Shown one piece after another: positions 35,386-54,074 of a DNA stretch of 64,000 nucleotides. The translations under genes and the position numbers were made by a program. The stretch spans positions 3,410,001 through 3,474,000 of the forward strand of contig NZ_CP049143.1 in NCBI RefSeq assembly GCF_011044495.1, given 5' to 3'. Each line of letters opens with the position of its first letter. Position 1 is the stretch's first letter. Origin of the DNA: Roseimicrobium sp. ORNL1 (GTDB taxonomy: Bacteria; Verrucomicrobiota; Verrucomicrobiia; Verrucomicrobiales; Verrucomicrobiaceae). The notes under the pieces are model-generated. The model was not told where the DNA came from, searched no databases, and saw nothing but the letters and a program-made list of their open reading frames with translations.

Positions 35386-35412
35386 TGTCACAGGCCGAAT
35401 CGCTGGATCGTC
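35386..35412 (+). promoter_or_regulatory. ECF41-type promoter of the NmrA-cupin-DoxX-sigma operon
   Basis: TGTCACA (35386-35392), a 16-nt spacer and CGTC (35409-35412). Both elements match the published ECF41 consensus -35 TGTCACA and -10 CGTC. The -10 ends 10 nt before the ATG of the first gene, so the transcript would have a leader of only a few bases or none. The ECF41 sigma factor itself is encoded as the fourth gene, giving an autoregulatory loop. Confidence 0.85.
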
Positions 35413-35422
35413 AGCACTGGTG

Positions 35423-36229
35423 ATGAACACTCCAAAAGACAATTCGAAGGGAAACGGCGGACAGGCTCTGAAGATCGTGGTGATCGGCGGGACAGGATTG
35501 ATTGGGAAGGAAGTGGTGCGGATCCTTCAAGGCAAAGGACACGAGGTGATTGTTGCCTCACCCTCCACGGGCGTGAATATCCTCACCGGTGAAGGCCTCG
35601 CCCAGGCGCTCACGGGAGCCCAGGTGGTGGTGGACGTGACGAACTCTCCGTCGTTCGAGGAGAAAGCGGTACTGGAGTTCTTCCAGACTGCAGGACGCAA
35701 CATCCACGCTGCGGAAGCGGCGGCAGGGGTGAAGCATCACGTGGCTCTGTCCGTGGTCGGTACGGATCGACTTCAGGACAGTGGCTATTTCCGTGCGAAG
35801 CTCGCGCAGGAGAAGCTGATCAAGGACTCCGGCATTCCGTTTACCATTGTGCGTGCCACGCAATTCTTTGAGTTCGTGGCCTCCATTGCGCAGTCGTTTA
35901 TCAATGGAGACACCATTCGCGCGACGCCTGAACCTTTCCAGCCCATGGCAGCTGCAGAAGTGAGCGCCGCCGTGGCAGATGCCGCTCTCGCCGAGCCGAC
36001 CAATGGCATCTCCGACGTGGCAGGTCCCGAACGCGTAAGCATGGCTTCCATCGTGCGCACGTACCTCGCCGCACAGGGAGACAAGCGTGAAGTCGTCGAC
36101 GACGTCAACGCAGCGTACTTCGGCGTGAAGATTGATGACAAATCACTCGTGCCACTCGGTGAGGCAAAACTTGGCCGCGTGCGGTACGAGGACTGGCTCG
36201 CCAAATCCCAGCCAGTCGGCGCGAAGTGA
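35423..36229 (+). CDS. NmrA-like NAD(P)-binding oxidoreductase, ECF41 module
   Basis: 268 aa Rossmann-fold protein with the dinucleotide motif GGTGLIG at 22-28 (KIVVIGGTGLIGKEVVRIL). It continues VVDVTNSPSFEEKAVLEFFQ, HHVALSVVGTDRLQDSGYFR and PFTIVRATQFFEF, typical of NmrA/atypical SDR proteins. The S-x3-Y-x3-K catalytic set of classical SDRs is not clear. It probably acts as an NAD(P)H-dependent reductase or redox sensor. The ATG at 35423 lies just after the ECF41 -10 element. ECF41 operons commonly carry an oxidoreductase or epimerase in this position. Confidence 0.85.
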   Translation: MNTPKDNSKGNGGQALKIVVIGGTGLIGKEVVRILQGKGHEVIVASPSTGVNILTGEGLAQALTGAQVVVDVTNSPSFEEKAVLEFFQTAGRNIHAAEAAAGVKHHVALSVVGTDRLQDSGYFRAKLAQEKLIKDSGIPFTIVRATQFFEFVASIAQSFINGDTIRATPEPFQPMAAAEVSAAVADAALAEPTNGISDVAGPERVSMASIVRTYLAAQGDKREVVDDVNAAYFGVKIDDKSLVPLGEAKLGRVRYEDWLAKSQPVGAK

Positions 36230-36275
36230 GATGTTCACCAACTCTTGTTCAGAACTCATGATTCCATTTCTTCCT

Positions 36276-36707
36276 ATGAAACCGACCCTCATCATCGCTG
36301 CCATTATCGCAGCCCTTAACCTCATGACTTCTCCTGCTGCCACTGCTGCGGATAAAGAGAAAGAGCCTGTGGAGATTAAGGAGATCTTCAAGCGCGCCCA
36401 TCCTGAACTTTCCGACAAGGAGGTGCTGGTGAAGCGCATCGAACTCCAGCCCGGAGCCTCTGCTCCTCCGCACGTGCATCCCGGCATGGTGATCGGATAC
36501 GTGGAGCGTGGCTCAATAGAGTTTCAGTTGAAGGACGGACCGCTTCTCAAGCTGAAGACAGGCGACACCTTCTTCGAGCCACCAGGTGCCCACCACATGG
36601 TGGCGAAGAATCTCGACCCCGCGAACGTCGCGGTGATCATTGCCTTCGTGGAGAACCCCAAGGGCGCACCACTATCCACGCCGCTGGAAGGTCATGGAAA
36701 ACACTGA
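36276..36707 (+). CDS. Secreted cupin-domain protein, ECF41 module
   Basis: 143 aa with a signal peptide (IIAAIIAALNLMTSPAATAA). The cupin barrel has motif 1 APPHVHPGMVIGYVERGSIE (His-x-His metal ligands) and motif 2 DTFFEPPGAHHMVAKN. It should be periplasmic and could be a small-molecule dioxygenase, isomerase or ligand sensor. It lies 46 nt after the NmrA-like gene and overlaps the DoxX gene by 14 nt, supporting one transcript. The ATG at 36276 gives the proper signal peptide; 36258 is an in-frame alternative. Confidence 0.85.
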   Translation: MKPTLIIAAIIAALNLMTSPAATAADKEKEPVEIKEIFKRAHPELSDKEVLVKRIELQPGASAPPHVHPGMVIGYVERGSIEFQLKDGPLLKLKTGDTFFEPPGAHHMVAKNLDPANVAVIIAFVENPKGAPLSTPLEGHGKH

Positions 36708-37137
36708 ACCCAAGCTGCACCGGAATTCACCTTCGCCTTCCGTGTACATCTTGGTCGAATGGTCGCTGCGAGTAAGTCTTGCAGCGGCCTTTCTTTCCGC
36801 GGTGGCGGATCGCTTTGGGTTCACCGGGGCTCCGGGTGCACCCAATGTGGCTTGGGGAACCTGGCAGCCTTTTGTCGATTACACGGGGACGTTGCTCTTC
36901 TTCCTGCCCAAGGCTCTCCTTCTACCCGCAGCGGTGGCAGCCACGGCTGCTGAAGTTCTACTCGCCTTGTGGTTGCTGACGGGCTGGCAAACCAAGCTCG
37001 CCGCATATGGCAGCGCCCTGCTCCTGCTGACCTTTGCATTGACCATGACACTGGCGCTTGGGGTTAAGGCCCCGCTGAACTATTCTGTCTTCACTGCGGC
37101 TGCTGCTGCCTTCGCCTTGGGAGCGATGAAATCATGA
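36694..37137 (+). CDS. DoxX-like membrane protein, ECF41 module
   Basis: 147 aa with four predicted membrane helices: LVEWSLRVSLAAAFLSAVAD, LFFLPKALLLPAAVAATAAE, KLAAYGSALLLLTFALTMTL and YSVFTAAAAAFALGAM. This is the DoxX/DoxD layout. DoxX proteins sit in the membrane near thiol-redox and quinone-linked proteins and are frequent targets of ECF sigma factors. It overlaps the cupin gene and is followed 45 nt later by the sigma gene. Confidence 0.82.
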   Translation: MENTEPKLHRNSPSPSVYILVEWSLRVSLAAAFLSAVADRFGFTGAPGAPNVAWGTWQPFVDYTGTLLFFLPKALLLPAAVAATAAEVLLALWLLTGWQTKLAAYGSALLLLTFALTMTLALGVKAPLNYSVFTAAAAAFALGAMKS

Positions 37138-37182
37138 GCCGTCGCTGGACAATGACAGGTCTGGATGTCCTTTTGGATCCCC

Positions 37183-38046
37183 ATGATTGAAGTCTTCACG
37201 GAGCATCGCAAGACCCTCTTCGGTATAGCCTACCGTATGCTCGGTCGCGTGTCTGAAGCAGAAGACATGCTGCAGGAGGTGTGGCTTCGCTGGCAGAAGC
37301 AGGATGCCTGTACCATCGACTCGCCCAAGGCCTGGCTGGTCTCCACCATGACCCGGCTGTGCATTGATCAACTGCGCTCTGCCCGGCGGGAGCGCGAAGA
37401 GTATTACGGTGTCTGGCTGCCGGAGCCTCTGATGGCCACGTGCGCCATGGAGCCTGACAAGGCGGCGGCTGTGTCGGATTCACTCACCATGGCCTTCATG
37501 ATGATGCTGGAGTCGCTCGACCCCGTGGAGCGCGCGACCTTCCTTCTGCGTGAAGTCTTTGACTACGACTATGCGGATACCGCCGCCATCGTGGGAAAGA
37601 GCGAGGTGAACTGCCGGCAGATCGTCCGCCGTGCAAAGGCCCAGCTTCAAGCACGTCCTCAATCGAACCTCACGCCCAACGCGCAGGCCCAGCGCCTCGT
37701 GGAGCAGTTCTTTCAAGCGGCGGAGACCGGGCGCGTGGAGGAGTTGCTCGCAATCCTGACGGAGGACGCCACGGTGTACAGCGATGGCGGCGGCCGCGTG
37801 CGCGCGGCAGGCCGGCCCATTTGCAGTGCGGATCACGTGAGCCGCTTCTTCATCGGCATCTGGCCACGACTGCCAGAGAAGACGGAGTGGCGTGTCACCA
37901 CAGTAAATGGCAGGCTGGGAGCGCTCCTACGCTCAGAAGGGGAGGTCTACGGCGCCTTCGCTTTTGATGTCGATGAGCAGCAGGTGGAGAACATCTATCT
38001 TGTGTTGAACCCCGAGAAGCTCAAGCACCTGGCGTGGGACATGTAG
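37183..38046 (+). CDS. ECF41-group RNA polymerase sigma factor (SigJ-like)
   Basis: 287 aa. Sigma region 2 covers residues 4-70 (FGIAYRMLGRVSEAEDMLQE, PKAWLVSTMTRLCIDQLRSA) and region 4 covers 105-155 (MMMLESLDPVERATFLLREV, YADTAAIVGKSEVNCRQIVR). A SnoaL-like extension fills 165-287. All three ECF41 hallmarks are present: WLPEP at 78-82 in the linker, DGGGR at 201-205 and NPEKL at 276-280. In this group the C-terminal domain acts as a built-in regulator in place of a separate anti-sigma factor. It is the last gene of the operon that starts at the ECF41 promoter, so it likely drives its own expression. Confidence 0.92.
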   Translation: MIEVFTEHRKTLFGIAYRMLGRVSEAEDMLQEVWLRWQKQDACTIDSPKAWLVSTMTRLCIDQLRSARREREEYYGVWLPEPLMATCAMEPDKAAAVSDSLTMAFMMMLESLDPVERATFLLREVFDYDYADTAAIVGKSEVNCRQIVRRAKAQLQARPQSNLTPNAQAQRLVEQFFQAAETGRVEELLAILTEDATVYSDGGGRVRAAGRPICSADHVSRFFIGIWPRLPEKTEWRVTTVNGRLGALLRSEGEVYGAFAFDVDEQQVENIYLVLNPEKLKHLAWDM

Positions 38047-38088: not shown

Positions 38089-39867
38089 TCAGCGCTCCGG
38101 AGCAGCTACGACACTCGTAAGCGTCGTTTTTGGATCGTGTGCGTGATCCTTGCGCGCCTCCTGCTGCCTGCTCCCACTCACCAGTCGGGCCAGCTTCTGT
38201 GCAAGCTTCATGCAGGGCTCGTCCACGAATGCCGTAAGCGTGAGCGAGGCCAGCCACACGAGAACAAGATAGATGACAAGCGTGATCAGCACGCCGAGGT
38301 GATAGTATCCGCCCGTGGGCCAGATGTCCCTGACGGAGGCAGGATGGATGGGCACAAGGAACAGGAAGATCCAGCACATGAAGGCATAGATGATAACCTG
38401 ATGGACGCCGTAGATGGCATACGACTGACGGCCCAGTCGATTCAGGGAACGCTTTGTGAAAAAGCGCTGCAGCCAGGGCGAGAGCAGCAGGGCTGAGACC
38501 AGCAAGATGGCTCCCACAAGTCCCGGGCCCCTGGTGGTGAACAGCACATTGAAGTAGGGGAGATAACCTCCCAGCCAGTGATCAAAACCCTGTTCCAGAT
38601 TGCCATGATCCATCTGAAGACCAATCAACAGCCCAAGGATGAAACATGCGGGAGCGATGCTGCGAATCCACTGCCATGAGGTAGGCAGGTGAAGGCTCTT
38701 GAACATGTCTGCCATCAAGGCGCCGAAGATGAAATTCACATACGGACCATCCCTCAGGACCCACGCCAGCACGGGATAGGTAAGCCATCGCGCCCAGCTT
38801 CCCCCCACGAGCATGGCCATGAGGTAGATGATGAAGGAACCCCACAACTCGATCCGGATGGTCCAGAACACCGGGCTGTACTGCACCGCCGTGGTGAATG
38901 CCATGGAGAGGTCCACAAAGAATCCCGCCGTGAGCTGGGGCGGCACGTGGCTGTTTGCAAAGTAGATACCGCTTTGCCTCAACAGCCAGACAAAAGTCAT
39001 CACGACTGCGAGAACCCCGAACAACCGCACCGGCCTGCGAAGAAAGGCCTCCCTCGCCCGCGTCATGTCCACCGGGCCGGGACCCGCGAAAGGCAGGAAG
39101 AGCACGAAGCCACTGAGAACAAAAAAGGTGTCCACCGCAAACGCACCCGCGTTCATGAGTGATGCGAATGGCACATGGCGGTGAAGCGAGACGATGTCAT
39201 ACCACGCCTTCCCCTGGACCACGGGGTCATTGAGCTCCTGGTAGAAAAGCTCCACGAAGTGGGTAACCACTACCACGAGACAGGCAATGCCGCGCAACGC
39301 CTCAAGGTAAGCCAGCTTGCCTTCGCTGATGGGGTGGGTGTGGTAGTACCGGCGCACTTTTCCCCAGAGGAAAATCGCCGCACCAAGATAGATCGGCCAG
39401 CGCAGCCAGTGAGGGACGGGATGCGGAGTCCACAGTTCGTAGCGGGCCTGTTGGGGACCTTTGGAATGATCCGCATACGGTTGCACCCACATGGTCTTTT
39501 CCCCAAGCGAAAAGCGTCCTTCACCGGCCTGCGTGTCGGCCATGGAACTGAATGGGCCACGCAAGGCACGGCCGTCCTGCGTGAGGCGGAGTTGGCGCTT
39601 GAGATGCTCCAGCTCGGGCAGCGCTCCCGGATAGCGTGGCTTCACCATCTCAGGCAGATTGGTGCTGGCGGTAGCCACCTTGCAGGTGCGCCATTTGCCA
39701 AAGAGCCGCCCCGTGAGGTCTTGGGCTAGCACTACTGCCGCCACAACGAGCAAAAGCACGATGCCCACGCGCCGGGAACGCGAGGGCCGCGATGGAGAGC
39801 TCGAAGGTTCTGCTGTTAAGGGGGAATGCACCACCTCGCTGGTGCCGCATTCACAGACACCGCGCAA
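38089..39867 (-). CDS. Acyltransferase family 3 membrane protein with N-terminal extension
   Basis: 592 aa. An N-terminal helix (VGIVLLLVVAAVVLAQDLTG) and about 110 soluble residues precede the acyltransferase-3 membrane domain. That domain starts at LAYLEALRGIACLVVVVTHF (the conserved Arg and His of the family) and runs through ten or so helices, including AFAVDTFFVLSGFVLFLPFA. Family members O-acylate sugars or lipids at the membrane. The extension of about 180 residues is unusual and may be periplasmic. The gene is convergent with the ECF41 sigma gene, with 42 nt between stops, and stands alone. Confidence 0.82.
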   Translation of the reverse strand: MRGVCECGTSEVVHSPLTAEPSSSPSRPSRSRRVGIVLLLVVAAVVLAQDLTGRLFGKWRTCKVATASTNLPEMVKPRYPGALPELEHLKRQLRLTQDGRALRGPFSSMADTQAGEGRFSLGEKTMWVQPYADHSKGPQQARYELWTPHPVPHWLRWPIYLGAAIFLWGKVRRYYHTHPISEGKLAYLEALRGIACLVVVVTHFVELFYQELNDPVVQGKAWYDIVSLHRHVPFASLMNAGAFAVDTFFVLSGFVLFLPFAGPGPVDMTRAREAFLRRPVRLFGVLAVVMTFVWLLRQSGIYFANSHVPPQLTAGFFVDLSMAFTTAVQYSPVFWTIRIELWGSFIIYLMAMLVGGSWARWLTYPVLAWVLRDGPYVNFIFGALMADMFKSLHLPTSWQWIRSIAPACFILGLLIGLQMDHGNLEQGFDHWLGGYLPYFNVLFTTRGPGLVGAILLVSALLLSPWLQRFFTKRSLNRLGRQSYAIYGVHQVIIYAFMCWIFLFLVPIHPASVRDIWPTGGYYHLGVLITLVIYLVLVWLASLTLTAFVDEPCMKLAQKLARLVSGSRQQEARKDHAHDPKTTLTSVVAAPER

Positions 39868-53508: not shown

Positions 53509-54074
53509 CACGCGTGAGCCTCCTTGCGCATGTGCTTCTCCGCGCATTCCAGCAGCGACGCACGGAGACGCTGGATTGTCTTGTAGAAGGCCTGGGCGCT
53601 CTTGCCCGCCTTCTCTGCCACCTCATGAAATTTCACGCCGGGCTGATACGCCAGATGCAGCAGCTCTTTCTGGCGTGGATCGAGTTTCTCCAGGCACTTG
53701 CAAAGGGCCAGACGATGCGCCTCCAGCGTGTCCGTCTCCTCCAGGGACTCTTCCGCCAGCAAGTCGAGAATCTCGTCATTGAAGACAAGGCGATCACGCG
53801 ACATGCGGCGCAGATGCTTCAGCGATTCGAATCGCGCAATCGCCGCCGACCACGCCATGAAGTTCGTGCCCCGGTCGAACTGGTCAAACTTCCGCCACGC
53901 CACGATGCTGGTCTCCTGCATCACCTCGTCCACATCATCCCAGTCCGGCAGCAGACTCCTCAGGAAGCCACGAAGCCGGCCCTCATGAGCCACAAAGAGA
54001 CGCACAAAAGCCTCATAGGTCTCCGGCGGAGCCTCTATCTCGATGCGGGGAGTGGAGGGAGTGTCTTCAGGCAT
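53508..54074 (-). CDS. ECF sigma factor, Rhodopirellula/Verrucomicrobium type
   Basis: 188 aa. Region 2 is AFVRLFVAHEGRLRGFLRSL, then DWDDVDEVMQETSIVAWRKF and FMAWSAAIARFESLKHLRRM. Region 4 is CLEKLDPRQKELLHLAYQPG, then FHEVAEKAGKSAQAFYKTIQ. The CLEKLDPRQ and FHEVAE features match the PVC-specific ECF group described as the Rhodopirellula/Verrucomicrobium family (TIGR02989). The upstream in-frame extension was not used because the ATG at 54074 gives the standard start. It forms a translationally coupled pair with the FecR-LamG gene. Confidence 0.9.
   Translation of the reverse strand: MPEDTPSTPRIEIEAPPETYEAFVRLFVAHEGRLRGFLRSLLPDWDDVDEVMQETSIVAWRKFDQFDRGTNFMAWSAAIARFESLKHLRRMSRDRLVFNDEILDLLAEESLEETDTLEAHRLALCKCLEKLDPRQKELLHLAYQPGVKFHEVAEKAGKSAQAFYKTIQRLRASLLECAEKHMRKEAHA

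Follow-up and report, generated by a model that had tools for sequence, protein, structure and literature searches.

How is the first gene of an operon expressed when its promoter ends 10 nucleotides (nt) before the start codon? The question is raised by a 64,000-nt stretch of Roseimicrobium sp. ORNL1 DNA (contig NZ_CP049143.1, positions 3,410,001 to 3,474,000; hereafter the window, in which all coordinates are counted). According to the sequence and the list of open reading frames (ORFs), its plus strand from 35386 to 38046 carries the motif TGTCACA-N16-CGTC, a gap of 10 nt, and then four genes, for an NmrA-like protein, a cupin, a small DoxX/MauE-like membrane protein and an ECF41 sigma factor (Table 1). 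The first-pass annotation of this stretch had described a sigma gene ending its own operon behind an ECF41 promoter 10 nt before the first start codon. The positions bear this out: the distance from CGTC to the ATG at 35423 is exactly 10 nt, and the sigma gene is taken as the operon end because the next long ORF (38089-39867) lies on the minus strand. We consider it likely that this is an autoregulated ECF41 operon with a leaderless or nearly leaderless mRNA. The module as such is ordinary for ECF41, and its arrangement has already been published (PMC3426412; this and the other papers cited below are represented by excerpts). Its main interest lies in the near-leaderless leader, since this is found repeatedly within the lineage.

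The string TGTCACA-N16-CGTC alone has no significance genome-wide. The exact motif occurred nine times in the genome (one contig of 7.96 Mb) versus seven times for the reversed pattern, and once in the window versus 0.19 expected, with at least one match in 16 of 100 shuffles. The ECF41 promoter is credible because of its position and its conservation in relatives, not because of the string count. In the same-genus genome G387 (locus L094), whose sigma factor is 86% identical to that of the window, 31 consecutive bases are identical, from CGCTGGATCGTC through ATGAACACT, with more divergent flanks; just upstream of this block a further 18 bases (GGATTCTGTCACAGGCCG) are identical as well. The same motif precedes the gene of the COE class in 97 of the 107 published loci in which a COE gene lies before the ECF gene (PMC3426412), as it precedes the NmrA-like gene here.

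The distance between promoter and start codon was compared across three sets of ECF41 loci. The Verrucomicrobiota set comprised 44 loci (the window, four named loci and fetched regions), after removal of duplicates (L029, L032 and L034, of L095, L062 and L160, respectively) and of L036 and L037, which are not from Verrucomicrobiota. The proteobacterial set (the phylum of a Ruegeria genome) held those 30 of 34 matches that had a locus, with ∼1.5 kb upstream, and the plasmid set held 15 loci picked for variety among 60 listed of 429 records. A TGTCAC-type motif was found upstream of the sigma gene in 33 of the 44, 26 of the 30 and 10 of the 15 loci (the last at 11 places). Short spacing was scored where an ATG 7-13 nt after the -10 element began a frame of 70 or more codons, counting ATG starts and not GTG. 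By this measure 25 of the 33 motif-bearing Verrucomicrobiota loci had short spacing versus none of 20 proteobacterial loci with an enzyme gene first, while random positions within the Verrucomicrobiota loci scored in 3329 of 99000 trials (3.4%). The first long frame with an ATG in those proteobacterial loci began 17-70 nt after the -10 element (18/20 at 21-35 nt), with a site resembling a Shine-Dalgarno (SD) sequence in 17/20. One short-spacing locus, L076, was left out since its 73-codon frame is doubtful. The 24 that were kept span at least nine family labels (f1, f2, f5, f11, f12, f17, f21, f91 and f109; L031 and L033 have none), and their first genes vary, being NmrA-like, decarboxylase-like, reductase-like and others (judged by eye except in the window). 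From these sequences, a start codon adjoining the transcription start would be a frequent property of Verrucomicrobiota ECF41 promoters.

The position of the transcription start was predicted by calibration on the ECF41 operon of Sinorhizobium meliloti, whose mapped start lies 9 nt past the motif (PMC3616915); a pyrimidine-purine step was sought at nt 9/10 first, then at 8/9, then at 10/11. The step lies at 9/10 in 26 of the 33 motif-bearing Verrucomicrobiota loci and at 8/9 in five, and at 8/9 in 18 of the 20 proteobacterial enzyme-first loci. All 24 kept loci have predicted leaders of 0-3 nt, namely 0 nt in one locus, 1 nt in 12, 2 nt in six and 3 nt in five, and in 17 of them the rule used the 9/10 step. 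In the window, +1 is predicted at G35422, one base before the ATG, giving a leader of 1 nt.

A putative sequence element, TGGTGA, surrounds the predicted start. It was recognized in the long-leader set, ten promoters comprising eight of the 33 together with L077 and L098 (G/AGTCACA), from about five lineages by our own grouping. In these ten, T6, G8, T9 and G10 after the -10 element are invariant, and nine match TGGTGA at five or more of six positions, which shuffled rows reach in 0.5% of cases. Strict GGTG at nt 7-10 occurs in 7/25 short-spacing Verrucomicrobiota promoters, in 0/5 other paralogue-type promoters, and in none of the 20 enzyme-first and six sigma-first proteobacterial promoters; the box is thus not universal, given the counts of 7/25 and 0/5 outside the long-leader set. 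We also asked whether the NTG at nt 8-10 could be the start codon of a leaderless message, sorting it as in frame with the gene, ending on the ATGA of the gene, or neither. Such triplets are frequent, and none of these classes was clearly over-represented by eye. They thus give no evidence of translation, and the TGGTGA box is read as a transcription-start element, the last A of which can double as the A of the ATG. Two of the longer leaders (L080 and L078) open with a short inverted repeat just after the -10 element, in L080 GGTGAGCC-GAC-GGCTCACC (by eye).

Several observations weigh against so general a view of the short leader. Short spacing was also found in 5/6 proteobacterial loci with the sigma gene first and at 2/11 plasmid places, and is therefore not unique to Verrucomicrobiota; the Fisher test for short spacing (p 1.6e-8) overstates independence, as the loci are related. 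Eight of the 33 motif-bearing loci had no short-spacing ATG; in seven the first long frame begins at 19-45 nt, and the eighth, L166, is ambiguous. The initiator rule fell back in 7/24 loci, to 8/9 in five and to 10/11 in two. Eleven of the 44 Verrucomicrobiota loci lacked a TGTCAC-type motif, six having GGTCACA and one AGTCACA, and the remaining four showed no convincing motif among the variants scanned. The second ECF41 promoter of the same genome (L077) is itself GGTCACA, with 33 nt from CGTC to ATG.

This second ECF41 gene (L077, G000:C1:2882500-2891500) adjoins a decarboxylase-like gene, and its relatives L074, L096, L097 and L098 have promoters with GGTCACA or AGTCACA instead of TGTCACA. 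What speaks for the GGTCACA variant is its position in these relatives, since its count in the own genome is at background (15 matches versus 16 reversed). The exchange of the first T for G or A possibly insulates paralogues from each other. Separately, in six sigma-first loci from other phyla (L118, L119, L121, L124, L126 and L103) an ATG lies 8-9 nt after CGTC, and the sigma mRNA may be leaderless outside Verrucomicrobiota too.

A different account of the window would have the working mRNA come mainly from another promoter further upstream, with an ordinary leader, the near-leaderless transcript being minor. In its favour, there are 41 nt between the start of the divergent ORF (35344) and the -35 element, with a T-run mostly kept in L094. 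Against this, only 78 nt separate the divergent ORF start from the ATG, conservation is highest over the block of ECF41 motif and start region, and relatives with other first genes have equal spacing. We regard such a promoter as unlikely.

The sigma factor scores 358.3 bits against TIGR02957 (cut-off 323.25), and Sigma70_r2 and Sigma70_r4_2 are likewise over cut-off in the profile search. Its order is sigma2, a WLPEP linker, sigma4 and a fused SnoaL-like C-terminal domain containing DGGGR and NPEKL; all three motifs, named in the first-pass annotation, are in the translation. Residues W84-P88, D207, G209, N282, P283, K285 and L286 are invariant in 26 aligned sequences, the window one included, drawn from the ∼44 Verrucomicrobiota loci. 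DGGGK-like and NPDKL-like motifs within a C-terminal extension of ∼100 amino acids (aa) are what we take to be ECF41 traits. The WLPEP linker and the C-terminal extension were defined as traits of the group by Wecke et al. 2012 (PMC3426412), who counted NmrA as the COE "epimerase"; the NmrA-like protein encoded next to this promoter is over cut-off for PF05368 (39.7 bits). ECF41 membership thus stands as the best reading. The SnoaL-like nature of the C-terminal domain, also proposed at first, found no Pfam SnoaL match in the sigma factor at E <= 0.001, but is supported by the predicted structure (mean pLDDT 78; linker residues 76-107 poorly predicted, below 50), which has SigJ as its best match in the PDB, with SigG1, a SnoaL-like protein and ketosteroid isomerases among the further matches. 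The best sequence match, too, is SigJ of Mycobacterium tuberculosis (PDB 5xe7; E 3.5e-43), which resembles the window factor over sigma2, sigma4 and the SnoaL-like domain, although it comes from another phylum and shares 30% identity in the fold match.

The best reading remains that this fused domain takes the place of an anti-sigma factor, as first suggested. The SnoaL-like extension is reported to be inhibitory and to contact a linker motif (review PMC8999054), and truncations of it change activity: one partial truncation raised activity ∼20-fold, and full removal abolished it (PMC3426412). Were a separate anti-sigma factor in control instead, the candidates would be the NmrA-like protein and, by analogy with ChrR, the cupin, which does have a ChrR-type Cupin_7 match, below cut-off. 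The N-terminus of the cupin, however, resembles an export signal (by eye), unlike a cytoplasmic anti-sigma factor; co-expressing YdfG, the partner enzyme, had no significant effect (PMC3426412); and two relatives of the same family (L035 and L229) keep the cupin and sigma genes without the NmrA and DoxX-like genes. Control of this kind seems to us very improbable.

The leader is as short as predicted if ATG 35423 is the true start. The ATG is directly preceded by an in-frame GTG at 35420, and codons 2-18 of the NmrA-like gene contain no further in-frame ATG, GTG or TTG. Its first 17 codons differ from those of L094 at 12 bases, eight of them at third positions, with no gaps (counted by eye). 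That translation begins further downstream, the region after the ATG being an untranslated leader, would recall the more distant, SD-equipped starts of the proteobacterial enzyme-first loci, but is highly improbable, given that the next in-frame starts (GTG, codons 19 and 20) fall within the KIVVIGG stretch of the NAD-binding fold, that the differences from L094 are gap-free and rich in third positions, and that ATG and core share one frame in relatives with N-termini of differing length.

The decarboxylase-like genes allow the two kinds of leader to be placed side by side. In the seven proteobacterial loci that yielded their core pattern, it begins 40-42 nt after the -10 element; among eleven Verrucomicrobiota loci it begins at 38-61 nt, and in six of these at 38-43 nt (two values of 25 nt were set aside as reductase-like genes). 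In six of the seven proteobacterial loci the called ATG lies at 31-33 nt, each with an SD-like site, and in L133 at 17 nt. The start codons of the two groups are nevertheless mostly ∼20 nt apart; Verrucomicrobiota therefore appear, from the sequences, to translate a stretch that serves as leader in proteobacteria.

Table 1. Features of the ECF41 locus in the 64,000-nt window.
Feature	Position	Strand	Evidence and remarks
Divergent ORF, 343 aa	34313-35344	-	Starts 41 nt upstream of -35 and 78 nt from the NmrA-like ATG
ECF41 -35 element, TGTCACA	35386..35392	+	Agrees with published consensus (PMC3426412, excerpts); kept in L094
ECF41 -10 element, CGTC, after 16-nt spacer ending GCTGGAT	35409..35412	+	Sequence; L094
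TGGTGA box around predicted transcription start	35418..35423	+	Comparative; step T35421/G35422
NmrA-like / NAD(P)-binding protein, 268 aa, COE "epimerase" class	35423..36229	+	PF05368 and PF13460 over cut-off
Cupin protein, signal-peptide-like N-terminus (by eye)	36276..36707	+	Cupin_2 53.2 bits, over cut-off
Small DoxX/MauE-like membrane protein	36694..37137	+	MauE E 7e-4, below cut-off
ECF41 sigma factor, 293 aa	37165..38046	+	TIGR02957 358.3 bits; alternative ATG 37183

The gene set had been given as NmrA-like, cupin and DoxX. The first two names stand, with NmrA and Cupin_2 over cut-off; the third is less well supported, as a Pfam profile search with the third protein gave just the weak MauE match and none to DoxX at E <= 0.001. 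The cupin gene has an alternative ATG at 36258, and the start in Table 1 agrees with the ORF start in L094. The cupin and DoxX/MauE-like genes overlap by 14 nt, identically in L094. From this gene content, a response to redox or small-molecule stress is plausible. Elsewhere in the window, two minus-strand matches to TIGR02957 fall far below cut-off, at 53511-53996 (22.4 bits) and at 1-69 (53.6 bits), the latter extending past the left edge. ECF41-type matches at E <= 1e-50 were present in 19 of 387 genomes drawn from Verrucomicrobiota; one ECF41 gene (L045 / L070, G045:C3:111017-111868) has an in-frame TAG and is possibly a broken copy, with a promoter that looks intact.

The autoregulation proposed at the outset remains the best reading, and its steps may be pictured as follows. 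The fused domain would hold the sigma factor back, as is known for the group, until a cue relieves the inhibition; the factor would then direct RNA polymerase to the TGTCACA-N16-CGTC before the NmrA-like gene, and the NmrA-like, cupin and membrane proteins would rise together with the factor itself, in a positive loop. With transcription starting at G35422, one base before the AUG, the first gene would have no room for an SD site, and its translation would begin at the 5' end of the message. On the genes behind it, ribosomes would start at internal sites or by coupling, the latter presumably at the 14-nt overlap.

The nearest characterized systems differ chiefly in the leader. Bacillus licheniformis (ydfG) and Rhodobacter sphaeroides (RSP_0606) share the sigma type, promoter and COE gene class of the window, whereas their mapped leaders are 22 and 23 nt long and carry a ribosome-binding site (PMC3426412), versus the 1 nt predicted here. 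In the SMb20029-rpoE9 operon of S. meliloti the sigma gene is likewise the last, of two genes, behind the same motif, and the operon is the single target (PMC3616915, PMC6180224). Its first gene, however, encodes a carboxymuconolactone decarboxylase rather than an NmrA-like protein, and its promoter reads ATGGTGTCG after CGTC, with no TGGTGA at the corresponding position. The excerpts of the S. meliloti start-site map (PMC3616915) do not call this operon leaderless. Cupins occur in four published ECF41 loci, and the excerpts of that survey (PMC3426412) make no mention of an NmrA-cupin-DoxX/MauE-like set; ECF41 together with DoxX was not found in the PMC open-access literature. Nor did the papers looked at there contain a prior description of a leaderless ECF41 architecture or of the start-site box, both of which, within this scope, appear to be undescribed so far. 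Akkermansia muciniphila belongs to the same phylum as Roseimicrobium sp. ORNL1. Leaderless starts, at the start of annotated genes, make up ∼10% of its transcription starts (PMC4782308), and the excerpts of that report draw no link between these mRNAs and ECF41.

ECF41 factors generally control one gene or operon (PMC3426412). Eight of the nine exact genome-wide matches, a search that the first-pass annotation had suggested, had loci, and four of the seven outside the operon lie inside long open frames. Of the others, L003 is ∼80 nt upstream of the start codon (ATG) for a large protein, and neither L005 nor L007 has a gene start worth following. A relaxed motif with an ATG at 5-14 nt matched 31 times in the own genome versus nine times reversed; among 30 such loci, the window operon alone had TGTCACA and YGTY together with a convincing gene start (by eye). 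The own-genome matches examined thus contain no other convincing target, which is consistent with the published single-target picture.

The motif extended with TGGTG matched 22 times in 384 genomes of the class versus four times reversed. Seven of the 22 are ECF41 loci already in our set, and seven further matches were inspected, six of which gave no convincing target. The seventh (L219 / L228; G404:C5, 183117-183588) is a cupin and DoxX-like operon without a sigma gene, in a genome of the same family as the window, that keeps the ECF41 promoter, with its ATG 10 nt after the -10 element. This operon may be a target in trans, because the single ECF41 that G404 has at E <= 1e-40 is encoded on a different contig, next to another gene. 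Of 68 genomes in the family, nine gave a match to the cupin, in three cases a weak one only.

A bolder interpretation, which we offer tentatively and think rather improbable, holds that in Verrucomicrobiota the ECF41 promoter has three parts (-35, -10 and TGGTGA) and is often joined to a leaderless start, that the sigma response is gated a second time by the state of the ribosome (for example IF2-rich or stress-modified), and that the G404 operon is driven in trans. If so, the first target enzyme would depend on 5'-end, SD-independent translation upon sigma activation.

Should the likelier reading of an autoregulated, near-leaderless operon hold, one sigma factor would have leaderless target operons throughout much of a bacterial lineage; in proteobacteria, by contrast, these enzyme families keep ordinary SD leaders, which would make a clean comparative system. 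It would show how leaders are lost, here by turning the leader into an N-terminal extension, and would refine the model of the ECF41 promoter that regulon prediction relies on, through the start-site box and the G or A for the first T in the paralogous clade. It would also provide a system in which to ask whether leaderless translation adds a layer of control to a stress sigma factor.

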